Below are positions 4,305 to 39,226 of a DNA stretch of 39,330 nucleotides, piece by piece. Below the pieces are notes generated by a model that was not told the DNA's origin, did no database searches, and worked only from the letters and a program-made list of their open reading frames with translations. Position 1 is the stretch's first letter; every line of letters starts with the position of its first letter. The stretch comes from a virus, in the IMG/VR virus record IMGVR_UViG_3300027833_000106, positions 1 to 39,330 of that record; one strand, written 5' to 3'. The position numbers and the translations under genes are program-made.

Positions 4305-4656
4305 GATAGATGCGCTTCTATCTGAGTTCAGAAAACTTGACCCCAACTTGCAAATGCAAACTGCTTTAGCTTTTGTATATATAGCGCAGGGTGATGACGC
4401 TAACGATCCTCTATCTGTGTATCAGGTAGGTGACAAGCTAGGGTGTACCAGTGCGAGTGCGTCAAGAAACGTAGCAGCATTAAGTAACTGGTCACGCCAT
4501 AATCGTGCAGGGTACGGGTTAGTCGAGGCTAACGAAAATCCTGAGAGGCGTAATGAAAAAGTAATCACACTTACACCCAAGGGTAAGCAGTGGTTGAGAT
4601 CACTCGACAAGATTTGTGAAGATCAAGTAACAGCAATCATAAGGAGTAGAAAGTAA
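4285..4656 (+). CDS. Winged-helix (MarR-like) transcriptional regulator
   Basis: A 123-residue protein with a MarR-type fold order: an N-terminal helix (LDRIDALLSEFRKLDPN), a hydrophobic helix (QMQTALAFVYIAQG), an HTH (LSVYQVGDKLGCTSASASRN with recognition helix SASASRNVAAL), then a wing and LTPKGKQWL, the motif seen after the wing in MarR proteins. It ends four bases into the integrase start (TAATG), so regulator and integrase are made together. It likely acts as the lysogeny or integration regulator. The palindrome at 3797-3808 is a natural autoregulatory target. No known ligand site is visible. Confidence 0.75.
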   Translation: MSVKLDRIDALLSEFRKLDPNLQMQTALAFVYIAQGDDANDPLSVYQVGDKLGCTSASASRNVAALSNWSRHNRAGYGLVEANENPERRNEKVITLTPKGKQWLRSLDKICEDQVTAIIRSRK

Positions 4657-5639
4657 TGAGTATTAAAAGCAGAGGTAATTCTTTTGTTGTGGACATACGC
4701 AAGACAGGCTTCGAGCGTGTGCGTAGATCATTCCCTACCAGAGAAGAGGCTGTATTATTTGAGGCGCAGGTAGCGGTGAGTCACCGTACTGGTACGCCCT
4801 TACCTGATAAGTATGTGCCTGAGAGTAGCTACACTTTAGCCAAGGCGCAGGATGCCTGTTTTAATATGCACTGGCAGGGTGGTAAGTCTGAACAAGCCAT
4901 GCTTAAACTTATGCAAGTACACTGTCGTTACTTTGGTGCTAACATACCTATCTCAGCAATTAATACAGGTGTGTTGGACGGTTACATCGAACACATGAAG
5001 CTGGCTAGAAAATCCAATGCCACTATCAACAGACATCTCGCGTGTATCTCTAAGGTGCTGCGGCTTGCCCATGAACAAGACAAGCTAGATAAATTCCCAC
5101 ACTTCCATCGTCAAAAGGAAGGGCAAGGTAGGGTACGCTGGTTGACTGATGAAGAAGAGGCCAAGATATTACAAACCCTACGACTGTGGGGTTCTAACAA
5201 GTTTGCTGATGCGTGTGTTGTGTTACTCGACACGGGTATGCGTAAGTCAGAGTTGCTTCGAGTTACTAAGAGTGACATCACCAAGCAGGGGGTGTACTGT
5301 AGTGATCGTAAGGGTAACAGCCAAACCATTATCCCATTGACAGCTAGGGCCAGAAAAATTCTGGAGATATATGCCCGTACCAGTACTGATACATGTATAA
5401 TGTCTGGGTACTACAATAAAAGTGTATGGGGTAGGATGCAAACTCACTTAAATTTACCTGATGTATCGCTGCATGTACTCAGGCACACTTGCTGTTCACG
5501 TTTAGTGCAAGGAGGTATGCCACTGGTACACGTAAAAGGTTGGATGGGACACAAGGCTATCTCTACCACCATGCGTTATGCCCACCTAGCACCTACTGAT
5601 TTGATACAAGGTGTTACCTTACTGGAGAATAGGGCTTGA
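4656..5639 (+). CDS. int: Tyrosine recombinase, phage integrase
   Basis: A 327-residue integrase. It has an N-terminal arm-binding part (MSIKSRGNSFVVDIRKTGFE, then RVRRSFPTREEA, like other AP2-type arm domains), a core-binding SAM-like domain (about 60-145) and a C-terminal catalytic domain. The catalytic residues are complete: R196 (GMRKSELL), K219, H273 and R276 (HVLRH), H299 (GWMGHK) and Y308 (TTMRYAHL). It cuts and joins phage and host att sites. It is coupled to the upstream winged-helix gene and ends 75 bp before a tRNA-Leu flanked by repeated arm-like octamers, so the phage is predicted to be temperate. Confidence 0.95.
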   Translation: MSIKSRGNSFVVDIRKTGFERVRRSFPTREEAVLFEAQVAVSHRTGTPLPDKYVPESSYTLAKAQDACFNMHWQGGKSEQAMLKLMQVHCRYFGANIPISAINTGVLDGYIEHMKLARKSNATINRHLACISKVLRLAHEQDKLDKFPHFHRQKEGQGRVRWLTDEEEAKILQTLRLWGSNKFADACVVLLDTGMRKSELLRVTKSDITKQGVYCSDRKGNSQTIIPLTARARKILEIYARTSTDTCIMSGYYNKSVWGRMQTHLNLPDVSLHVLRHTCCSRLVQGGMPLVHVKGWMGHKAISTTMRYAHLAPTDLIQGVTLLENRA

Positions 5640-5672
5640 TTAATTACACTCATGCGACTACAAACTACTTGA

Positions 5673-5710
5673 TGCCGCATGTGGCGCACGATGTGGCGCA
5701 GGTGTGGCAC
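5673..5710 (+). promoter_or_regulatory. Left integrase arm-type repeats (attP, P arm)
   Basis: Three direct octamers, TGTGGCGC (5680-5687), TGTGGCGC (5692-5699) and TGTGGCAC (5703-5710), are spaced 12 and 11 bp. An inverted copy TGCCGCAT lies at 5673-5680. Matching repeats appear on the other side of the tRNA (5908-5991). Short, helically phased direct repeats on both sides of a tRNA core are the hallmark of integrase arm sites. Confidence 0.65.
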
Positions 5711-5714
5711 TCAC

Positions 5715-5801
5715 GCCCTCGTGGTGAAATTGGTATACACGCAAGACTTAAAATCTTGTGCCTCTTGGGGCTTACCGGTTCAAGTCCGGTCGAGGGCACC
5801 A
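5715..5801 (+). tRNA. tRNA-Leu(UAA), complete with CCA
   Basis: Acceptor stem GCCCTCG (5715-5721) pairs perfectly with CGAGGGC (5791-5797), followed by ACCA. The anticodon arm is CAAGA-CTTAAAA-TCTTG with anticodon TAA. The T arm is ACCGG-TTCAAGT-CCGGT. A long variable arm, as in leucine tRNAs, is present. All arms are intact, so it could be a working tRNA. Its position right after the integrase and between arm-type repeats suggests it is also the identity block of attP, restoring the host tRNA-Leu after integration. Confidence 0.95.
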
Positions 5802-5877: not shown

Positions 5878-6045
5878 ATGAATTGTATAAATACATGCTG
5901 CGTTACATGTGGCACTAACTTCATACACTATCGTAGTAAAATACACTTTTATGCACCACAAAGTGTCCACTTGCGGCACTTTATGCGGCACTCAACCCAT
6001 TATGGAGAACAATATGGCAACCTTAGAAGATCAACTAGCACTTGA
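5878..6045 (+). CDS. Possible 55-residue cysteine-rich protein
   Basis: An open frame starting MNCINTCCVTCGTNFIHYRS, with four cysteines within the first 11 residues. GGGAG (5864-5868) lies 9 bases upstream of the ATG. It runs through the right-arm att repeats and overlaps the polymerase start at 6014. The ribosome-binding site is good, but the frame may be accidental, as the DNA is already explained by att repeats. Confidence 0.3.
   Translation: MNCINTCCVTCGTNFIHYRSKIHFYAPQSVHLRHFMRHSTHYGEQYGNLRRSTST
5908..5991 (+). promoter_or_regulatory. Right integrase arm-type repeats (attP, P' arm)
   Basis: TGTGGCAC (5908-5915), TGCGGCAC (5972-5979) and TGCGGCAC (5984-5991) repeat the octamer seen on the left of the tRNA. 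The last two are spaced 12 bp, as on the left. A reverse copy, read as TGTGGTGC on the minus strand, lies at 5953-5960. Confidence 0.6.
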
Positions 6046-6790
6046 GTTACAGATGTGCCAAGCAGGAGAAGAAAGATACGACAAGCAGGTGACTGCACTA
6101 GCTGATAAGGGTGTGGAGAGCCGAGCGCAACACGGTAAGGCCATCATTGGCAATGTACTCGGCCCGTTATCAAAAGCTATAGCAGAATTCTGTACGGGTG
6201 AGACTTCATCTAATCGGAGTGTTGCCTATGGTAAGATCAAGCACCTTAACGCTGACCGTCTTGCTGTCTTAGCCCTGTTAGGTGCTATTGATAAGATCAG
6301 CCAGCGTGTACCACTAATGGCCGTAGCAAGGACTGTGGGCCTGTACATTGAGGATCAAGATAGGATCGAGAAGTGGCTGGGTGCAGACAAGGAGGTGGCC
6401 GCTACCATTCTTAAAATGGCGGCAGAAAAATCTACCTACAGACACAGGCGGTCAGGTGTCATTCATAAGATGAATAATGATGGGTACTACGAAACCTCGT
6501 GGACTAATGACGAGCGTATCCATGTAGGTTTGAAGATGATTGACCTGATCATTACCCATACAGGTGTACTAGAATTGGTACGTGTCAGGACATCTCGAAC
6601 CAAGACCACAACATACCTTGTTGCACAGGATGTAACACTGGATTGGATCAAGGGTTTCCATGCGTCCCATAGAAGTGCGCGTCCCCGTTACGCCCCTTGT
6701 CTCATACCACCTAAGAAGTGGGAAGGGTTGTTCGGGGGTGGCTACTACATAGACGCACTTAATAATTTACCCCTAGTGAGGATGCACTAA
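6014..6790 (+). CDS. Phage RNA polymerase, N-terminal subunit (split gene)
   Basis: A 258-residue protein matching only the N-terminal domain of T7-type single-subunit RNA polymerase. Recognisable T7 landmarks are LEDQLALELQMCQAGEERYDKQ (T7: REQLALEHESYEMGEARFRK), WTNDERIHVGLKMIDLIITHTG, YAPCLIPPKKWEGLFGGGYY and the end LPLVRMH (T7: LALVRTH). This region carries the promoter-binding and intercalating-hairpin elements. The start at 6014 follows GGAG (6004-6007). An upstream extension to 5909 would run through att repeats. It stops with TAA overlapping the ATG of the catalytic half, so the polymerase is made as two coupled polypeptides. Confidence 0.9.
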   Translation: MATLEDQLALELQMCQAGEERYDKQVTALADKGVESRAQHGKAIIGNVLGPLSKAIAEFCTGETSSNRSVAYGKIKHLNADRLAVLALLGAIDKISQRVPLMAVARTVGLYIEDQDRIEKWLGADKEVAATILKMAAEKSTYRHRRSGVIHKMNNDGYYETSWTNDERIHVGLKMIDLIITHTGVLELVRVRTSRTKTTTYLVAQDVTLDWIKGFHASHRSARPRYAPCLIPPKKWEGLFGGGYYIDALNNLPLVRMH

Positions 6791-8466
6791 TGAGAAAGAG
6801 AACCACTGAGTATTTTCTTGAGTTAGAGAAGTGTGATATGAGCCAAGAGTTGAAGTGTGTGAATGCACTACAGGACACACCTTGGCAGATCAACAGACAT
6901 GTGTTGGCTGTACTACGTCAGGCGTGGGACAGTGGACAGACATGGGGTGGCTTACCAGCAAGGGATAATCTACCGCTGCCTGAGTACCCTTTTAGCTGTG
7001 AACCCAGCGAGTTAACACCAGCGCAACAGGTTGAGTTTAAAGAGTTCAGAAAGAAACGAGGGGCGGTACACGCTCACAATAATACGACAATGAGTTTACG
7101 TATTCTGATCGAGCGTACCATTCAGATTGCGGAGCAGTATGAGAAAGAGACGGAGTTCTTTTATGTCTGGCAGTTAGACTTCCGGTCACGTAAGTACCCT
7201 ATGGAATCCTTCCTGTCACCGCAGACGGGTGATGCAGGTAAGGCACTACTCACCTTTGCGTATGGTGTAGCGATAACCTGTGCAGATGATGCCAAGTGGT
7301 TAGCCATACAAGGTGCGAATGTCTACGGCAACGATAAGATCACCCTAGAGGAACGCGAATTGTTTGCGTACATGAATACGGAGTTGGCTCAAGCTGTAGC
7401 TGACGATCCCTTCAGTGAGACTATCTGGCTGGAGGCTGATAAGCCGTGGCAGTTCTTAGCATGGTGTTACGAGTGGGCGGGTTACACTAGGGCCAGAGAT
7501 GCGGGTGAAGAGTATCTCACCACACTACCTTGCTCTGCTGATGGCTCGTGTAACGGCTTACAACACCTGTCAGCTATCTTACGAGACAAAGAGGGAGGTA
7601 AGGCCGTGAACCTAACCAAGACTTCACTGCCGCAGGACATCTACGCTGATGTCGCTATGAAAGCAATGGCCCGTATCCGTAAGGATGCTGAAGACATCTC
7701 TAATACAATGGCCCAGCAGTGCCTGAAGTTTGGCATCACTCGTAAGGAGACTAAGAGGTCAGTGATGATCGTGCCGTATAGCGGTACACGATACGCCTGT
7801 CGGGATTACGTCATGGAAGCACTGAAGGAACGGGTGAAGAAGCAGGGCCATAACCCTTGGGGTGATGATCTGTACTTAGCTGCCAACTACATGTCAGGAC
7901 ACATCTGGGATGCGATCAGCGATAGTATCAGTTCGGCCCGTATTGTTATGGACTACATCAGGTCAGTAGCAGAGGTATACGCCAAGAACAAGCAGGTCAT
8001 GCAGTGGTATACACCAACAGGCATGTTGATCTGGCAATGCTACAGTGACATGAACAAACGTAGGATCAAGACATCCATCAACGGTTCGGTTGTTAAACTC
8101 AACTACCACAGTCAGATAGACGATACTGTAAACCGTTCTAAGACGTTATCGGGTGCATCCCCTAACATGATCCACAGTTTAGATGCGGCTGCTCTAACCA
8201 TGACTGTGAACCGCTGTACGGATGTAGGCATCAGGGACTTTAGTATGGTGCATGACAGCTACGGCACTCAGTCACCCTACATGCCACAGATGGTCAACAT
8301 TATCCGTGAAAGTTTCGTGGATATGTATGAAGAGAACGATGTCCTGCAACAATTATACGAACATGCCGTCAAGGTTTTACCTGATGGTGTAGAAATTCCC
8401 AAGCCACCGGAGAAAGGTGACTTGAGTTTACAAGAGGTGCTGCAATCTGAGTACTTCTTTTCCTAA
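6790..8466 (+). CDS. Phage RNA polymerase, catalytic subunit (split gene)
   Basis: A 558-residue protein that resumes exactly where the upstream gene stops when compared with T7 RNA polymerase, giving about 816 residues together versus 883. All catalytic residues are present: D251 (SADGSCNGLQH, T7 D537), K322 and Y330 (TKRSVMIVPYS, T7 K631 and Y639), H462 (IHSLDAA, T7 H784) and D489 (MVHDSYGT, T7 D812). It ends in the hydrophobic foot SEYFFS. The motif after Y330 is SG rather than T7 GS. Its own ribosome-binding site GAGG (6778-6781) lies 8 bases before the ATG. It is expected to work as a heterodimer, like N4 RNA polymerase II, and to read the motif found at 8463, 16554 and 38681. Confidence 0.93.
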   Translation: MRKRTTEYFLELEKCDMSQELKCVNALQDTPWQINRHVLAVLRQAWDSGQTWGGLPARDNLPLPEYPFSCEPSELTPAQQVEFKEFRKKRGAVHAHNNTTMSLRILIERTIQIAEQYEKETEFFYVWQLDFRSRKYPMESFLSPQTGDAGKALLTFAYGVAITCADDAKWLAIQGANVYGNDKITLEERELFAYMNTELAQAVADDPFSETIWLEADKPWQFLAWCYEWAGYTRARDAGEEYLTTLPCSADGSCNGLQHLSAILRDKEGGKAVNLTKTSLPQDIYADVAMKAMARIRKDAEDISNTMAQQCLKFGITRKETKRSVMIVPYSGTRYACRDYVMEALKERVKKQGHNPWGDDLYLAANYMSGHIWDAISDSISSARIVMDYIRSVAEVYAKNKQVMQWYTPTGMLIWQCYSDMNKRRIKTSINGSVVKLNYHSQIDDTVNRSKTLSGASPNMIHSLDAAALTMTVNRCTDVGIRDFSMVHDSYGTQSPYMPQMVNIIRESFVDMYEENDVLQQLYEHAVKVLPDGVEIPKPPEKGDLSLQEVLQSEYFFS

Positions 8467-11293: not shown

Positions 11294-13009
11294 ATGAGAT
11301 TACTATTTGATATAGAGGCCGATGGCCTATTGAAAGAAGCTACGAAGGTGTGGTGTCTGGTCATACGTGACTTAGATACAGGCAAGGTATCGGCTTACGA
11401 TCCCTTCACACTGGACGCTGGCTTACAACACTTAGGTGAAGCAGATGTTCTTGTCGGACATAATATAATCGACTACGACTTGCGCCTGCTGGAGAAACTC
11501 CACGGGTTCAGAACCAACGCTACCCTAGAGGATACTCTAGTATGGTCACGGACAATCTTCCCTGATCTACGAGAGCAGGACTTAAAACGTCTTAACGCTA
11601 ATAAGGTAATGATCGGTAGCCATGCACTCAAGGCTTGGGGGATACGCCTAGCGTGTCACAAGGGAGAGTTTGGTCAGGACGATGGTGCATGGGAACGGTA
11701 CTCCCCAGAGATGTTGGAGTATTGCAAGCAAGACGTAGAGGTAAACTTTAAACTGTATGGAAACCTATGTAAGAAGATAGCGGAATGGAAACCGTGGACT
11801 GAAGTACTGAAGTTTGAGACAGAGGTACACCGACTGCTACAGGATCAAACCACTAGGGGTTTTCCGTTTGACGTTGCCAAGGCTGAAAAGCTGTACAGCG
11901 AACTGGCGGGAGAGAAGGCTGAACTAGAGCAGTCACTAGTGTCAAACATTGAGCCTACGATTGTGCAGTTAAAGACCAAGGAGAAGGTGATACCTTTTAA
12001 CCCTGCATCCAGACAGCAGATTGCAGATCGACTAATGAAGCGAGGGTGGGTTCCAGAAGCATTCACCCCATCAGGTGAGCCTAAAGTTGACGAGCAGGTA
12101 CTTAGTAAGATTGAGTTACCTGAAGCTAAACAACTGTGCAGGTTCTTATTACTAAACAAACGTATAGGCCAACTAGCTACAGGTAAACAGGCGTGGCTTA
12201 AAGTACAAACCGAAGGCCATGTACACGGTAGGGTCAACCACATGGGGGCAGTGACATCTAGGTGTACACACTCTGATCCTAACGTGGCCCAAGTACCCTC
12301 ACTCAGTGCAGAGTACGGTCAGGAATGCCGTGAGTTGTTTCACGCCCCTGCTGGTTATGTACTGCTAGGTGCTGATGCGTCTGGGTTAGAACTTAGATGC
12401 CTTGCGGCTTACATGAAACCTTTTGACAACGGTAATTACGTAGAGGAAATATTAAACGGTGACATCCACACGAAGAACCAACATGCGGCAGGGCTTACAA
12501 CGCGCCCTCAATCTAAGACGTTCATTTATGCTTTTCTCTTCGGAGCCGGTGATGAAAAAATCGGAAGTATTATCGGAGGAAGCAAAAGTGACGGCAAAAA
12601 AATTAAGGCCCGTTTCCTAAAGCAGACTCCCGCACTCAAGATACTACGTGAGAAGGTTAGCGAGAAGGCTGCTGGCGGTTACATTAAAGGGATTGATGGG
12701 AGACGCATACCTATACGTCACCCCCATGCTGCATTGAACACACTACTGCAAAGCTGCGGTGCTGTGATCTGTAAGAAGTGGTACGTGGAAATTCACAAGA
12801 TGTTTAGACAAGCAGGTTTAACAGAGAACGATGCCCGTGTAGTGGCATTCGTACATGACGAGGTTCAGATTGTCGTGCGTAACGGAATGGAGGAACAAGT
12901 AGGTGAAATTACCTTACAAGCAATTCGAAATGTGGAACGACAACTCAACTTTGGGTGCAGACTTGACGCAGAGTACAACACTGGACAAAGCTGGGCGGCA
13001 ACCCACTGA
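11294..13009 (+). CDS. DNA polymerase, family A (T7 gp5-like)
   Basis: A 571-residue polymerase with a 3'-5' exonuclease domain (D6 and E8 in LFDIEADG; NIIDYDLRLL; D147 in YCKQDVEV) and palm motifs A (GADASGLELRCLA, D361), B (RPQSKTFIYAFLFGAG) and C (VHDEVQ, D522). It is 133 residues shorter than T7 gp5. Most of the loss falls before PFNPASRQQIADRL, where T7 carries its thioredoxin-binding loop. Only about 18 residues fill that place here, so processivity probably does not depend on host thioredoxin in the T7 way. The 3' end overlaps the next gene. Confidence 0.95.
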   Translation: MRLLFDIEADGLLKEATKVWCLVIRDLDTGKVSAYDPFTLDAGLQHLGEADVLVGHNIIDYDLRLLEKLHGFRTNATLEDTLVWSRTIFPDLREQDLKRLNANKVMIGSHALKAWGIRLACHKGEFGQDDGAWERYSPEMLEYCKQDVEVNFKLYGNLCKKIAEWKPWTEVLKFETEVHRLLQDQTTRGFPFDVAKAEKLYSELAGEKAELEQSLVSNIEPTIVQLKTKEKVIPFNPASRQQIADRLMKRGWVPEAFTPSGEPKVDEQVLSKIELPEAKQLCRFLLLNKRIGQLATGKQAWLKVQTEGHVHGRVNHMGAVTSRCTHSDPNVAQVPSLSAEYGQECRELFHAPAGYVLLGADASGLELRCLAAYMKPFDNGNYVEEILNGDIHTKNQHAAGLTTRPQSKTFIYAFLFGAGDEKIGSIIGGSKSDGKKIKARFLKQTPALKILREKVSEKAAGGYIKGIDGRRIPIRHPHAALNTLLQSCGAVICKKWYVEIHKMFRQAGLTENDARVVAFVHDEVQIVVRNGMEEQVGEITLQAIRNVERQLNFGCRLDAEYNTGQSWAATH

Positions 13010-29600: not shown

Positions 29601-30277
29601 CCTTCATGCCTTACTACCGACTGTTTGAAGAAATCTACTCTGGTAACGAGAACATGATACCTGAGATTAAAAAGATTGAAGATGCAATCAACGCTCGACC
29701 ACACGCACTTAGCTTACTCACTCGTGGGTTCCATCAAAGTGCTAATGTCAAACGTGATGCTATCTTTGGACAGCCTTTAATTAAAGATGACATGATCTTA
29801 GCCGTCTCTGGTTTACCACATCACGAAGTGAACGGTAATGAGCAAGAGAAGAATGTGCTTAGAGAACTGGATCGACTGGGCATGAGTGTTGGTAATCTTA
29901 GTAAGAAATCAAGTACGTTAGGTAATCAAGTCCTGACGGAGTTTGATGTCGATGATGTTACCAATCGTAGTGTGTATGATTTACTTCAGGAAACTGTAGG
30001 TACAGTGAAGCTAGGCGGTAAGACTTTAGTTGAGGCCCTAGAGACACAAATGAATACTAATATGTATGTCAACAGTTTTACTGATCCAACCAGACGCACA
30101 GGCGCAAAAGAAATAGAAGGTCAACGGATCGCTGCTTTAGATCAGGTGATAAGTGCCTATCGACAGGCGGCTCGTGTTAAAGTGCGTAAGATTTTAGGTG
30201 AAGATCACCCAATATTTGACAGCGAGAAACTATCTAATCAACTACAACTCAATAGAGTTTTAACAGGAGGTGAGTAA
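26606..30277 (+). CDS. Internal virion protein, T7 gp16-like
   Basis: A 1223-residue protein, the longest in the window and close to T7 gp16 (1318). Gly/Ala-rich hydrophobic stretches (about 155-170 and 228-252, and about 865-890 with [19 protein letters not shown]) could cross the inner membrane. The C-terminal half has [20 protein letters not shown], a motif common in these proteins. I do not see the N-terminal lytic transglycosylase motif (ES.......A) that T7 gp16 has. It forms the inner-membrane part of the ejection channel. It overlaps the fibre gene by one base. Confidence 0.87.
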
Positions 30278-31746
30278 TGGCTTATAGTTACGCACAGTAC
30301 ACAGCAGATGGTACCACCAAGACATTTGCCATTCCATTTACTTATTTGGATGATGCTGAAGTTGTAGTGTTAAAGAACGGGGTACAAGAAGTACTCCCTT
30401 CTAATACACTGACAGCTACCGTAGGAAGTGTGACATTATCTGGGTTTCCTATTTTTGGTGATATTATTAAAGTAGTCAGGGTAAGCGATTTGGCTACAAG
30501 GGCTGTTGATTTTCAATCAGGTGCAATGATCAGAGAAGAAGATTTAGATTCTTCGGCACAGCAGGTATTCAACGCAGTACAAGATGTTAAAGATGCTGTT
30601 GATCTGTCGCTCAAACTTAACTATCAAGGCAACCTCGATGCTCTAAACGCAAGAGTCATTAACGTAGCTGATCCGGTAGACAATACAGATGCTACAAGTA
30701 AAGGGTGGGTGAATTCAGCAGCCGCTTCTACGCTTGCCGCAGCCAATTTAGCTGTAACTGATGCCCAAGCAATTAAAGACCAGTTAACTAATCTGTCAAT
30801 TGTTTATGTGGGAGTTACAATAGGCACGGCAGGTTCAGTAGTTTATGATGTCGATACTGGAGTTGCTACCTTTAGTATTCCCGAAGGCCCCGCAGGCCCA
30901 GCAGGCCCTACAGGTGCCACAGGATCAATAGGTTCTGAAGGCCCTACAGGTTCTCAAGGCCCAATAGGCCCACAAGGCCCAGTAGGTGCTACAGGTGATA
31001 CAGGTGACACAGGCCCCATAGGACTTCAAGGTGCTATAGGCCCCACAGGACTTCAAGGTGAAAGAGGCTTTGAAGGGGATGTTGGCCCCGCTGGCCCAAC
31101 CGGACTCCAAGGCCCTACAGGTGCCACAGGTCTCCAAGGTGAAAGAGGCTTCGAAGGTGATGTTGGCCCCGCTGGCCCTACAGGACTTCAGGGTGCTATA
31201 GGCCCTACAGGCCCTCAAGGCGTTACTGGTGCTGAAGGTGATGATGGTGCTACAGGCCCAGCAGGCCCCACAGGACTCCAAGGCCCTACAGGTGCCACAG
31301 GCCCTCAAGGCATTACCGGTGCTGATGGTGATGATGGCGATACTGGCCCCCAAGGCCCCGTAGGTAATACGGGAGCCACAGGAGCAATAGGCCCAACAGG
31401 AAGCCAAGGCCCTATAGGCGCTACAGGTTCTACAGGCCCAGCAGGCCCCGAAGGTAATCAAGGTGTCGCAGGGTTACAAGGCCCTACAGGATCACAAGGC
31501 TTGATAGGTCTTACAGGCGATACAGGTTCTTCAGGCCCAGCAGGCCCTACAGGCAGTCAAGGCCCTACAGGTAACCAAGGCCCTGTGGGAGCGCAAGGTA
31601 ACATGGGCGCAACTCCTTTAGGCTTGGCGTTTGGTAGAATGCAAGTGACCAGTGCAGGAATACTACAAATGGAATACTACGGTGATGCTGATGATAACGA
31701 TTTCAGCATTAACTCTTCTGGCATATTAACAGTAACAACGGTATAA
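30277..31746 (+). CDS. Tail fibre with T7 gp17-like N-terminus and collagen-like shaft
   Basis: A 489-residue protein. Residues 1-150 match the T7 gp17 virion-attachment domain ([56 protein letters not shown]). Residues 204-446 are 81 uninterrupted Gly-X-Y triplets by hand count, often GPTG, GPQG and GATG, forming a trimeric collagen-like shaft. A short C-terminal cap of about 43 residues follows. There is no receptor-binding head of its own, so the next gene may supply it. The two genes are 5 bases apart. Confidence 0.93.
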
Positions 31747-31751
31747 AAATT

Positions 31752-33374
31752 ATGGGAACAATTAATATAGGTAAAGTACGTCAATCCTTTGAAGGCACGT
31801 ACAGTTCTAGCACAGCTTATGTTGTGTTAGATGTAGTCTTTTCTAGTGGCGAAAGTTTTGTATGTATTCAAGACGCATCAGCAGGAACTTCTCCAACAAA
31901 CACAACACACTGGCAAAAATTAGTCCAAAAAGGAAGTGATGGTGCTGACGGTGCTGATGGCTCAAATGGCGCTACAGGCGCTACAGGCCCTCAAGGTAAC
32001 GCAGGCCCTCAAGGTGTTCAGGGAGAAGATGGAGGCACTGGCCCTCAAGGTGCCACAGGCCCCGCAGGTTCTACAGGCCCTCAAGGTGCAACTGGAGCCA
32101 CCGGCCCAGCAGGTGATGATGGAGGCACTGGCCCTACAGGTTCTACAGGCCCCCAAGGCCCAGCAGGTAATGACGGTGCTGACGGTGCAACAGGCCCTCA
32201 AGGCTCCCAAGGCCCTACAGGTAACACCGGTGCAACAGGCCCTCAAGGCCCCGCAGGTGATGACGGTTCTGACGGTGCCACTGGTGCTACAGGCCCTCAA
32301 GGCCCTACAGGTAACACTGGTGCAACTGGTTCACAAGGCCCCGCAGGTGACGATGGCCCCACAGGCTCCCAAGGCCCACAAGGCCCCATAGGTAACACTG
32401 GTTCTACAGGGTCACAAGGCCCCGAAGGTGATGATGGCCCTACAGGTGCCACAGGCCCTCAAGGCCCCATAGGTAACACCGGTGCGACTGGTGCAACTGG
32501 TTCACAAGGGTCACAAGGCCCACAAGGCTCACAGGGCGGCACAGGCCCTCAAGGCCCCGCAGGTGATGATGGTTCTACAGGCGCTCAAGGTGCTTCAGGT
32601 GCAACAGGCCCTCAAGGTGCAACAGGCTCCCAAGGTGCAACTGGCCCAGCAGGTTCAAACGCTAATGTTACTAGTGCAACTATCTCGTCAGCAGGCGGCA
32701 TGTTGAAATCTGCTAACTCACAGCTAGACATGAACAACAACGACATTGTGGGTGTCGATCAGATTTTCCACGAAGGTGACACCAACACATACATCCAGTT
32801 TCATGCGGCTGATGAGTGGCGTGTTGTTACTGGTGGAGTAGAGCGTTTAGAAGTTAACAATAGTGCTGTGACAATTGCTGGAACGCTTAATGTTCGTACT
32901 GCTATTGATCTTGCAGATAATGATCATCTTCGATTCGGATCTGGCGATGATTGCAAAATGTTCTGTAATGGTTATGCTCAGTTCATAGATTTGAATAGCG
33001 GTATTGGAAACTTGTTCATTCGTGATGGAACTACAACTCGCTATACCTTTGATGACAACGGATCATTCACAGCAACAGGTAACATCACCGCTTATTCTGA
33101 TAGACGATTAAAGGATGACATCCAGCCAATCGAAAGTGCTTTAGAAAAAGTCGGCACACTTAGCGGTAACACTTACCAGCGGAATGACTTGAAAGACCCC
33201 GACAGACGTTACGCAGGTGTCATTGCTCAAGAGGTTGAGCAGGTACTTCCTGAAGCAGTTACTGAGGCTGAAGATGGTATTAAGACTGTAGATTACAACG
33301 CTATCATTGCCCTACTTGTAGAGTCTGTTAAGGAACTAAAAGTAGAGGTTGATCAACTTAAAGGAGGTTCCTAA
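31752..33374 (+). CDS. Collagen-like fibre protein with S74 chaperone domain
   Basis: A 540-residue protein. Residues 1-60 form a small beta domain ([20 protein letters not shown], then [11 protein letters not shown]..., W54) like carbohydrate-binding or fibre-connector modules. Residues 61-303 are again 81 Gly-X-Y triplets. A beta-rich head (about 305-445) follows. Residues 446-540 are an intramolecular chaperone of the peptidase S74 type: S449 and K454 in [10 protein letters not shown], then [17 protein letters not shown] and a C-terminal coiled coil. The chaperone is expected to cut itself off before S449 after trimer folding. It is likely the distal receptor-binding fibre. Confidence 0.92.
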
Positions 33375-36266: not shown

Positions 36267-36491
36267 ATGGCTAGAGATTACCGCAAAGAATACGACAACT
36301 ACCACAAGCAACCTGAACAGCGCCTTCGTAATGCCGCACGGAAACGTGCAAGGCGTAAAGTGATCCGTGATAAAGGCGCAGCCGCTGTACAAGGTAGAGA
36401 CGTTGATCACGTAGATCGTAACCCACAGAATAATGCCTCTAGTAACTTACGCATTATGTCTAAGAAAAGAAATAGGAGTCGAAATGGCTAA
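36267..36491 (+). CDS. HNH-like small protein
   Basis: A 74-residue basic protein. The Arg/Lys-rich helix RNAARKRARRKVIRDKG is followed by DVDHVDRNPQNNASSNLRIM, which has the D-H...N...N-L core of HNH nucleases, though the final histidine is not evident. HNH proteins next to the large terminase are common and can help cleave DNA at packaging. It overlaps the terminase start by 8 bases. Confidence 0.65.
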   Translation: MARDYRKEYDNYHKQPEQRLRNAARKRARRKVIRDKGAAAVQGRDVDHVDRNPQNNASSNLRIMSKKRNRSRNG

Positions 36492-38166
36492 CCCACAACT
36501 GCCTCAAGAGTTACACGACTTCAGGAACTTCCTGTTTATTGTATGGAAGCATCTGGCACTACCAGACCCGACAGAAGTACAATACGACATGGCCGAGTAT
36601 CTCCAGAACGCTCCTAGACGAGCAATCATTGAGGCATTCCGTGGAGTTGGTAAGAGTTACATCACTGCCGCCTTTGTAGTGTGGAAGCTACTGCTTGATC
36701 CTGAGATTAAGTTTATGGTTGTCTCCGCATCAAAGGCTCGTGCAGATGATTTCTCTACATTCACCCAACGGCTGATTATGGAACTACCAATGTGTAGTCA
36801 CCTGATCGCTAAAGATCACCAGCGGTGGTCTAAGATTGCATTCGATGTTGGCCCAGCCAAGGCATCAGGTTCCGCTAGTGTTAAATCTGTCGGTATCACT
36901 GGACAGCTTACAGGCTCTCGTGCAGACATTATTATTGCCGATGACGTTGAAGTACCCAACAACAGCATGACCCACATGATGCGTGAGCGTCTAGCGGAAG
37001 CTGTAAAGGAATTCGATGCGGTACTTAAACCCAACGGTAAGATACTTTACCTTGGCACACCACAGTGCGAAATGAGTCTTTATAATACACTCACAGAGCG
37101 TGGTTATAAGATGCGAGTATGGCCTGCACGTTTCCCTACCACAGAACGCGCTGAGAAGGCGTATGGGAGTCGTTTAGCACCTCTGCTATACGATAAGATG
37201 TCCTTTAGTGACAAGCCGTTAGACGGGCAACCAGTAGACCCTAAGAGGTTCGATGCTGATGACCTGTTAGAACGAGAACTCAGCTACGGTAAATCAGGCT
37301 TTGCTTTACAGTTTATGTTGGACACCAGCCTCAGTGACCTTAACAAATACCCACTGAAGCTAAGTGATCTTATGATCATGTCGTGTGACGCTAAGAAAGC
37401 CCCAGAGAAACTCGTGTATGGCATTATGAAGGAGATTAAAGACCTCCCTAATGTTGGCCTAGCGGGTGACAAGTACTACGCCCCAGAAGCTGTTGTAGGT
37501 GACTACGTTGACTACACAGGTTCCCTGTTGGTCATTGACCCGTCAGGTAGAGGTTCGGATGAAACCGCTTACGCAGTCATTAAGATGCTTAACGGTTACT
37601 TGTACGTTGTCGAGTGTGCTGGCGTTGACGGTGGTTACTCCACCCCCGCACTAGAGCATCTTGCAAAGAAGGCTAAAGAACACTCTGTCAACATGGTGCT
37701 GATCGAGAGTAACTTTGGTGACGGTATGTTTACAGAACTACTGAAGCCCATACTCAACCAGACGTACTCTGTTACCATCGAGGAGGTACGCCACAGCAAG
37801 CAGAAAGAATTACGTATCATCGACACACTAGAACCCCTGTTCAACCAACACCGGATCATTATAGACCCCAAGGTTGTCCAGCAGGATTACGATAGTGTTC
37901 AGAAGTACCCAGCAGAACAAGCCCAACGCTACATGCTCACCTACCAACTGTCTAGGATCACTAGAGATAGAGGCTCCCTAGCGCATGACGATAGGTTAGA
38001 TGTACTCGCTATGGGCTGTAAGTACTTTGTCGATCAAATGGCCGCTGATGTTAACTTAATGATGAACGAGCGCAAGGATGAAGTCCTACGTGCAGAACTC
38101 GACAAGTTCATTGGTGGATTCAATATAGGCAACAAGGGTAGCCCAACAGCCCTTACTGCATTCTAA
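36484..38166 (+). CDS. Terminase large subunit (T7 gp19-like)
   Basis: A 560-residue packaging motor. Walker A is AFRGVGKSYIT (K57), Walker B is ADIIIADDVE, and the coupling motif is KILYLGTPQ. The C-terminal nuclease has LLVIDPSGRGSDETA, MVLIESNFGDGMF and AHDDRLDVLAM with its metal-binding aspartates. It matches T7 gp19 (586 residues) in order and size. The start at 36484 has AGGAG (36473-36477). The upstream open frame overlaps the HNH-like gene. Confidence 0.97.
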   Translation: MANPQLPQELHDFRNFLFIVWKHLALPDPTEVQYDMAEYLQNAPRRAIIEAFRGVGKSYITAAFVVWKLLLDPEIKFMVVSASKARADDFSTFTQRLIMELPMCSHLIAKDHQRWSKIAFDVGPAKASGSASVKSVGITGQLTGSRADIIIADDVEVPNNSMTHMMRERLAEAVKEFDAVLKPNGKILYLGTPQCEMSLYNTLTERGYKMRVWPARFPTTERAEKAYGSRLAPLLYDKMSFSDKPLDGQPVDPKRFDADDLLERELSYGKSGFALQFMLDTSLSDLNKYPLKLSDLMIMSCDAKKAPEKLVYGIMKEIKDLPNVGLAGDKYYAPEAVVGDYVDYTGSLLVIDPSGRGSDETAYAVIKMLNGYLYVVECAGVDGGYSTPALEHLAKKAKEHSVNMVLIESNFGDGMFTELLKPILNQTYSVTIEEVRHSKQKELRIIDTLEPLFNQHRIIIDPKVVQQDYDSVQKYPAEQAQRYMLTYQLSRITRDRGSLAHDDRLDVLAMGCKYFVDQMAADVNLMMNERKDEVLRAELDKFIGGFNIGNKGSPTALTAF

Positions 38167-38176
38167 CGAGGACATT

Positions 38177-38647
38177 ATGATTGAAATAGCAATGGCAATA
38201 AAAGCCGCACACTCTAGTGTCCAATTTATCACCAAGGCGGTTAACGCAGGTCACGATGTAATGGACTTGACTGACCGCATCGGTGCTTTCTTTGACGCTA
38301 AAGAACAGATACAGGAGGCAGAGATAGCCTCCAAGAACCCCTCCATAGCCGCTAAACTACTTGCAGGAGGCTCTGTAGAGTCTCAGGCATTGCAGATTAC
38401 TGCTGCCAAGTACAAACTACAAGAGCATGAGAAGCAGTTAAGGGAAATTATAATGTACCACGGGGCAGGTGAAGCATTCTACCAAGAAATGTTACGGAAT
38501 AGACGCTTAATACGTGACCAGCGTATGAGAGCAGCTAGGAAGAAGGCTGAAACCAAGAAGATGGTACTCGATACAGCCCTAATAATCTTCGTAACACTTA
38601 TAGGAGCCGCCACGATCCCTTTGCTTGCTGTGTGGTTGATAGAATAA
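38177..38647 (+). CDS. Helical protein with C-terminal membrane anchor
   Basis: A 156-residue protein, last in the late operon. It is helical with many charged residues (LQEHEKQLREIIMYHGAGEA, RNRRLIRDQRMRAARKKAET) and ends in one transmembrane segment (LDTALIIFVTLIGAATIPLL then AVWLIE). T7 encodes spanin genes (18.5/18.7) near this place, but the anchor here is C-terminal rather than N-terminal, so it is not a typical i-spanin. Its function is unknown. Confidence 0.65.
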   Translation: MIEIAMAIKAAHSSVQFITKAVNAGHDVMDLTDRIGAFFDAKEQIQEAEIASKNPSIAAKLLAGGSVESQALQITAAKYKLQEHEKQLREIIMYHGAGEAFYQEMLRNRRLIRDQRMRAARKKAETKKMVLDTALIIFVTLIGAATIPLLAVWLIE

Positions 38648-38680: not shown

Positions 38681-38694
38681 CTAAAGGCCCCCTA
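38681..38694 (+). promoter_or_regulatory. Putative phage RNA polymerase promoter, copy 3
   Basis: CTAAAGGCCCCCTA, 13 of 14 bases identical to the copy at 8463. It points into the gene-free, hairpin-rich right end and would make a short non-coding transcript or prime replication. Confidence 0.6.
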
Positions 38695-38709
38695 TTAGTG
38701 GCGTGTTTG

Positions 38710-38751: not shown

Positions 38752-38824
38752 AGTAGCTAACTACTCTATAGATGGCTCTAATTCCTATAGATACCAGCCC
38801 CACACCCCCACATCAAAGGTTCTT

Positions 38825-39088
38825 GACGGTACTGAGGTATCGTCCCGATGGGTAACAAAGGACTACACAGAGACATTTAGTGTCTCCTACCTTCCCCCCA
38901 AGGTGTAGTCGGACAAAAAGCCCGTCCCTAATTTGGTAGAAAAATCTGAAGAGGTTATTAACGTGGGACAGTTCTACGATTCCCCCATGCGCTACACTAT
39001 AGGCCGAAAGATATGCCACCGGATACCGACTAGCGCCGCAGCTAGTGCCGCATGATCGCTGCGAGGCGCTTTGATGTTGGCCTTTCGG
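38825..39088 (+). ncRNA. Candidate structured RNA, unknown class
   Basis: Several strong helices follow one another. An 8-bp stem GACGGTAC/GTATCGTC (38825-38844) has a TGAG loop. An 8-bp stem GACTACAC/GTGTAGTC (38861-38868 with 38903-38910) encloses GAGACA/TGTCTC (38870-38886). A stem CCGAAAG/CTTTCGG (39004-39010 with 39082-39088) encloses an 11-bp helix AGCGCCGCAGC with GCTGC and GGCGCT (39032-39042 with 39058-39070, two-base bulge). An alternative hairpin ACTAGC/GCTAGT (39029-39046) excludes the last one. It lies downstream of a putative phage promoter. It is not a tRNA, tmRNA or RNase P by its visible motifs. The boundaries are uncertain. Confidence 0.5.
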
Positions 39089-39123
39089 TAGACTATTAAT
39101 CTAGTGCCAGCCGATACGGTGAT

Positions 39124-39143
39124 TTTCTTTACATGTAAAGATT
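39124..39143 (-). promoter_or_regulatory. 20-bp operator-like element, copy 4 (inverted)
   Basis: The reverse complement of AATCTTTACATGTAAAGAAA, with the palindrome at 39127-39140. It is the only copy on the minus strand. It lies about 54 bp upstream of the host promoter -35 at 39197. Confidence 0.7.
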
Positions 39144-39196
39144 CTATTGTGTCTGTTTGTCTTTTCTATCGGTTGCATTTATTTCACTAGGTGGCC

Positions 39197-39226
39197 TTGC
39201 ATTTGCTATAGGTATTTTGCTATACT
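39197..39226 (+). promoter_or_regulatory. Sigma70 extended -10 promoter for the right-end early gene
   Basis: TTGCAT (39197-39202), an 18-bp spacer and TATACT (39221-39226) with TGC directly upstream. It would start transcription near 39233, at the foot of a hairpin AATGGC/GCCATT (39233-39250), and drive the gene at 39301. Confidence 0.75.

Follow-up and report, generated by a model that had tools for sequence, protein, structure and literature searches.

A predicted T7-type concatemer junction in the gene-free right end of a marine phage contig

Gene content around the hairpin stretch

The analysed DNA (the window, 39,330 nt) is an incomplete and permuted contig of a marine T7-like phage, which encodes a T7-type RNA polymerase and T7-type replication genes. 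Its large terminase subunit (TerL) was of the T7 short-DTR type (DTR, direct terminal repeat), with 51-58% identity to TerL of T7 and marine autographiviruses, and 50-58% to TerL of DTR phages. The gene 3' of terL encodes 156 aa and gave a single borderline PHROG match, of unknown function in PHROG. A stretch rich in inverted repeats (38820-39090; Table 1) lies beyond this last late gene and before the first early gene (from 39301). A nearly identical IMG/VR contig (L092) runs from the right end of the window through the early genes to the first bases of the window. Thus, about 0.9 kb is absent between the window ends, and the stretch is placed between the end of the late region (terminase side) and the early region, where T7-type phages have their concatemer junction. 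A candidate host-type early promoter was read from the alignment and stays under the scan threshold; L004 carries TTGTGT-18-TATAAT at this position. A search of GenBank phage nucleotide sequences with the hairpin region gave no match.

The earlier note had described the stretch as free of protein genes, which was confirmed. The sole ORF (38813-39019, minus strand) had no Pfam match and is frame-shifted in relatives by 1-nt indels, and a protein gene on either strand was rejected on these grounds. A phage promoter proposed 140 bp upstream was rejected as well: the sole T7-promoter-like string (CACGCCACTAATAGGGGGC, minus strand, 38687-38705) would point away from the hairpins, and no second copy was found in the window within 4 mismatches. 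This single-copy string is nearly invariant in five relatives.

Table 1. Positions of genes, predicted junction elements and stems at the right end of the window.
Feature	Position	Strand	Basis or remark
Terminase large subunit (T7 gp19 type)	36433..38166	+	PHROG phrog_38, E 4e-114; upstream landmark
Small gene, 156 aa, 3' of terL	38177..38647	+	ORF list; last late gene before junction
Hairpin 1, 8 bp, GACGGTAC-TGAG-GTATCGTC	38825..38844		Sequence; 8/8 pairs kept in 4 sequences
Hairpin 2, closed multi-branch; candidate concatemer hairpin left of cut site	38848..38925		Fold, 4-sequence comparison, 61 relatives
Hairpin 2, closing stem	38848-38853/38920-38925
Hairpin 2, inner stem	38861-38868/38903-38910
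Hairpin 2, apical hairpins	38870-38886 and 38891-38902
Conserved box AATTTGGTAGAAAAATCTGAAGAGGTT, abuts predicted DTR start	38930..38956	+	Family PWM, homology to T7/T3/gh-1
Predicted DTR, single copy at concatemer junction, ~196 bp	38957..39152	+	Box, C5 spacing, right-boundary block
C5 box, +25 nt into predicted DTR	38982..38986	+	24-28 in 10/11 phages
7-bp closing stem around GC-rich helix	39004-39010/39082-39088
Alternative ("switch") hairpin	39029-39046		Excludes GC-rich helix
GC-rich helix, 6+5 bp	39032-39042/39058-39070		Within 7-bp closing stem
14-bp palindrome CTTTACATGTAAAG within predicted DTR	39127..39140		Also at 255, 643, 1843
Right-boundary block TTCTATTGTGTCTGTTTG	39142..39159	+	Counterpart: TGTGTCTCTCTCTATCTGTT in relatives, CCCT|ATCTGTT in T7 and T3
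Candidate host-type early promoter, TTGCAT-18-TATACT	39197..39226	+	Read from alignment; under scan threshold

The cut-site box and the predicted terminal repeat

Alignment of close relatives revealed a near-invariant block ending in GGTAGAAAAATCTGAAGAGGTTATT, beyond which the sequence is hypervariable for ~130 bp. Among 2.9 million viral contigs scanned for the pattern, the block was detected in 48 stretches, and the box consensus over all fetched loci was AATTTTGGTAGAAAAATCTGAGGGGGTATAT. The box of the window fits the signature AATTTTGGTAGAAAAATCTGAGGGGGTA. A position weight matrix (PWM) was built from 61 rows, with the close relative L092 left out and L004 (~76% identical here) included; its only strong match in the window scored 36 bits at 38926, the next best at most 0.6. 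For 96 of the 104 boxes in the fetched IMG/VR loci, CTGA was followed by a C-run at a distance of 31-33 nt. The box was located downstream of terL on the same strand in 87 of the 92 loci with a detectable terL (median distance, 503 nt), and on the strand opposite to the terL match in five loci. Six of the 104 box-bearing contigs end no more than 40 nt downstream of the box, and L002 and L006 end at the same base. That these are physical ends was rejected, since assembly breaks at the hypervariable DTR explain them equally well. One contig (L118, near 12809-12827) contains the box in tandem, the second copy being degenerate (AAAAAGATTTGGTGAAAAAATGCGAGACACTTACGC) and presumably the one followed by the C-run.

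Phages with terminally repeated records were used for comparison. The box ends exactly at the start of the identical repeat in T7 (160 bp), T3 (231 bp) and gh-1 (216 bp). In T7, the terminal repeat begins immediately after the box CATAAAAATCTGAGTGACTA and carries CCCCC at +25 nt, and the offsets of T3 and gh-1 agree with this to within 1 nt. Weaker related boxes were found at the repeat start of phiYeO3-12, HTVC019P, Syn5 and P-SSP7. Five test phages (phiYeO3-12, K1F, P-SSP7, phiKMV and SP6) were added after anchoring on T7, T3 and gh-1. The C-run starts 25-28 nt into the repeat in all five. Of their boxes, that of phiYeO3-12 was clear and that of P-SSP7 could be recognised; those of K1F, phiKMV and SP6 had diverged strongly. 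The ends of P-SSP7 have been mapped experimentally, with a repeat of 206 bp (PMC3350473), and the same length was found in its record here. In total, 10 of 11 phages had the C5 or C-run at 24-28 nt from the DTR start; the exception was LUZ100 (C-run at +13), whose annotated DTR start lies 12 nt off the position given by the C5 rule.

Applied to the window, the box and the C5 rule place the predicted repeat start at 38957 and the C5 at 38982. The right edge was taken from TTGTGTCTGTTT at 39148-39159, corresponding to TGTGTCTCTCTCTATCTGTT in relatives, which gives a repeat length of about 196 bp; T7, T3 and Syn5 have ATCTGTT at this edge. The left edge is set to the base by homology and the right edge to within about 5 bp. 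Most T7-type phages compared have repeats of 160-237 bp, a range that includes the predicted length. The predicted repeat is present once because the contig was assembled across joined ends, and one copy is expected for short-read assemblies (PMC10438801, PMC3350473). Homology gives strong support to the cut site and the repeat. As a kind, the T7-type terminal repeat is already known.

The window shares with T7 and T3 the gene order (terL, small gene, repeat, early promoters), the same box abutting the repeat, the C5 at +25, a CTGTT block at the right edge and an inverted repeat about 100 bp left of the cut. It differs from them in having AGAGGTT before the cut instead of GTGACTA or ATGGGTA, in an unrelated repeat sequence, and in the palindrome CTTTACATGTAAAG inside the repeat. 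In gh-1, the box AGAAAAATCTGAATGGTCA likewise abuts the repeat, and a strong stem-loop (R13) lies 75-140 bp to the left; its sequence differs from that in the window and it is annotated as a putative RNase III site. The marine T7-like phages HTVC019P (162 bp), Syn5 (237 bp) and P-SSP7 (206 bp) resemble the window in having GGGGTA or GTCATA ahead of the repeat and the C5 at 24-26, but their AATCTGA core is altered; in HTVC019P, the upstream stretch is coding, and its fold is hardly better than that of shuffles (z -0.9).

The signature holds across phages whose TerL are ~35-58% identical and can therefore locate DTR ends in contigs, which is useful where short-read assembly hides them. A family-wide box plus C5 rule was not described in the open papers searched; the older subscription papers on T7/T3 pac sites were outside this search, and the rule is therefore not claimed as new. 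Its power to predict genome ends across the family is possibly undescribed.

Folding on both sides of the predicted cut

The stems listed in the earlier note (an 8-bp hairpin, a multi-branch stem, a GC-rich helix in a closing stem, and a mutually exclusive hairpin) were all recovered. The pairing density, held there to be unmatched elsewhere in the window, turned out to be ordinary: the full 291-nt fold had z = -1.89 and was equalled by 12 of 200 shuffles. Its rank among 291 windows was 34th by z and 24th by raw energy. This rank would suit chance hairpins in a neutral, fast-changing spacer in which the box alone matters, as would the DTR part, whose sequence is hypervariable and which shows no structure beyond that of controls. 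Left of 38930, the stretch is better structured. Hairpin 2 (38848-38926) had z = -2.67, equalled by 3 of 200 shuffles, and the left hairpins (38825 to about 38926) are retained in three relatives. In the four sequences of the clade of the window, 98% of cells were paired. Covariation, proposed earlier as a check, yielded one compensatory change (A-T to G-C) in the left hairpins of these close sequences; the signal did not exceed that of column shuffles (72/500) because four sequences are too few.

Foldback potential at the corresponding place was enriched in relatives as well. The 150 nt left of the box in 61 non-redundant, diverse relatives had a mean z of -1.63, with 41% below -2 (dinucleotide shuffles), versus a mean of -0.58 and 8% below -2 for pieces drawn at random from these contigs (p = 6e-6). 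The best stem score upstream of the box averaged 11.9 versus 8.9 in shuffles. With the left hairpins conserved and the enrichment seen across the relatives, chance hairpins are considered an improbable explanation.

On the repeat side, the fold of the 150 nt in the same 61 relatives was no better than in controls (p = 0.45), and the right part of the stretch, with the GC-rich helix and its rival hairpin, had a z of about -0.9, which is not significant. A conserved switch pairing was sought in L004, where 1 of 6 pairs of the switch hairpin and 1 of 7 pairs of the closing stem were kept. Comparison with Rfam, also suggested earlier, returned only a tRNA for the whole window. The headline of the earlier note, a new phage RNA, switch or decoy, thus found no support: the stretch had no Rfam match, and the alternative pairings lie in the hypervariable repeat and are lost in L004. 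Neither a family match nor a conserved alternative pairing, as expected of a structured regulatory RNA or riboswitch, was found. A trans-acting or switch-like RNA from 38820-39090 could draw on the stable local stems (z -2.67 for 38848-38926), the non-coding character of the stretch and the alternative pairing present in the window sequence. It would, however, run across the terminase cut site, with no plus-strand promoter found, and is regarded as very improbable. Another option of that note, a packaging or origin structure, is the one favoured by the evidence.

Proposed role in packaging and further observations

The stretch is very probably, as predicted from its sequence, the concatemer junction of a T7-type (Autographiviridae) phage, i.e. 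a DNA packaging element. TerS/TerL would cut concatemers at about 38956/38957 and near 39152, yielding mature ends, and each packaged genome would need a second repeat copy. After nicking, the inverted repeats left of the cut may fold back and prime DNA synthesis through the repeat, by which a repeat copy would be provided at both ends of each packaged genome. In T7 infection, a hairpin structure was found in repeat-containing DNA and has served as support for one duplication model, according to PMC4281155, which refers to T7 DNA packaging papers; for the 'hairpin end' of T7 concatemers, Chung et al. 1990 is cited in PMC4281155 and PMC4925675. T7 has palindromes left of the terminase cut site, and its own upstream stem (ATGGTCTATC/GATAGGCCAT) has its centre 110 bp to the left of the repeat. 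In the window, conserved inverted repeats able to form hairpins are likewise located 30-130 bp left of the predicted cut and repeat. The foldback enrichment upstream of the box is consistent with such a hairpin end, and the inverted repeats at 38825-38925, box and repeat together fit the T7 duplication arrangement. That the left inverted repeats prime repeat duplication is a role borrowed by analogy from T7, and is considered somewhat more probable than its opposite.

The main rival for the hairpin is RNase III processing of late mRNA. On this view, late transcripts would end in the left hairpins, which would serve as an RNase III site or as a terminator before the repeat and have no role in DNA processing. 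The stem-loop of gh-1 annotated as a putative RNase III site (37000-37069) is at the corresponding place, and terminators are annotated near it in LUZ100 and phiKMV. Against this, the stems are not followed by a T-run, a scan detected no intrinsic terminator at this place, and the hairpin position tracks the DTR boundary across the family. A purely transcriptional role is thus rather unlikely, although both roles could be served at once.

Tentatively, and at somewhat less than even probability, the combination of hairpin, box TTTGGTAGAAAAATCTGAGGGGGTA and C5 at +25 may mark the left DTR boundary in nearly all phages of the T7 supergroup. Metagenomic contigs would then reveal genome ends at single-base precision, and hairpin-primed repeat duplication might be ancestral to the Autographiviridae. 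The packaging junction replaces the reading as a new RNA and places predicted physical genome ends for an uncultivated marine phage; repeat duplication, a step of T7 packaging, becomes testable by comparison.

Further features of the phage were recorded. The palindrome CTTTACATGTAAAG occurs in early-gene leaders and inside the predicted repeat, with additional copies in L092 (4461) and L004 (8833, 8888 and 9625). Two copies come after GATTTTAGGTRTGNTATAMT repeats resembling early promoters, and the palindrome is a candidate repressor operator. At 4656-5801, a complete tRNA-Leu (TAA) gene comes after an integrase gene; this is a likely attachment site, and the T7-like phage may therefore be capable of integration. 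Collagen-like GGN-CCN repeats (30880-32660) were found in the neighbouring genes 30277-31746 and 31752-33374, which probably encode tail-fibre-type proteins. The T7-type RNA polymerase is split over two neighbouring cistrons (5909-8466) that overlap at TAATG, with separate matches to the N-terminal domain (Pfam RPOL_N, E 4e-13) and the polymerase domain (RNA_pol, E 7e-103). Both parts were in separate frames in all relatives reaching both, including L169-L171 (~43-53% identity); the split single-subunit RNA polymerase is conserved.
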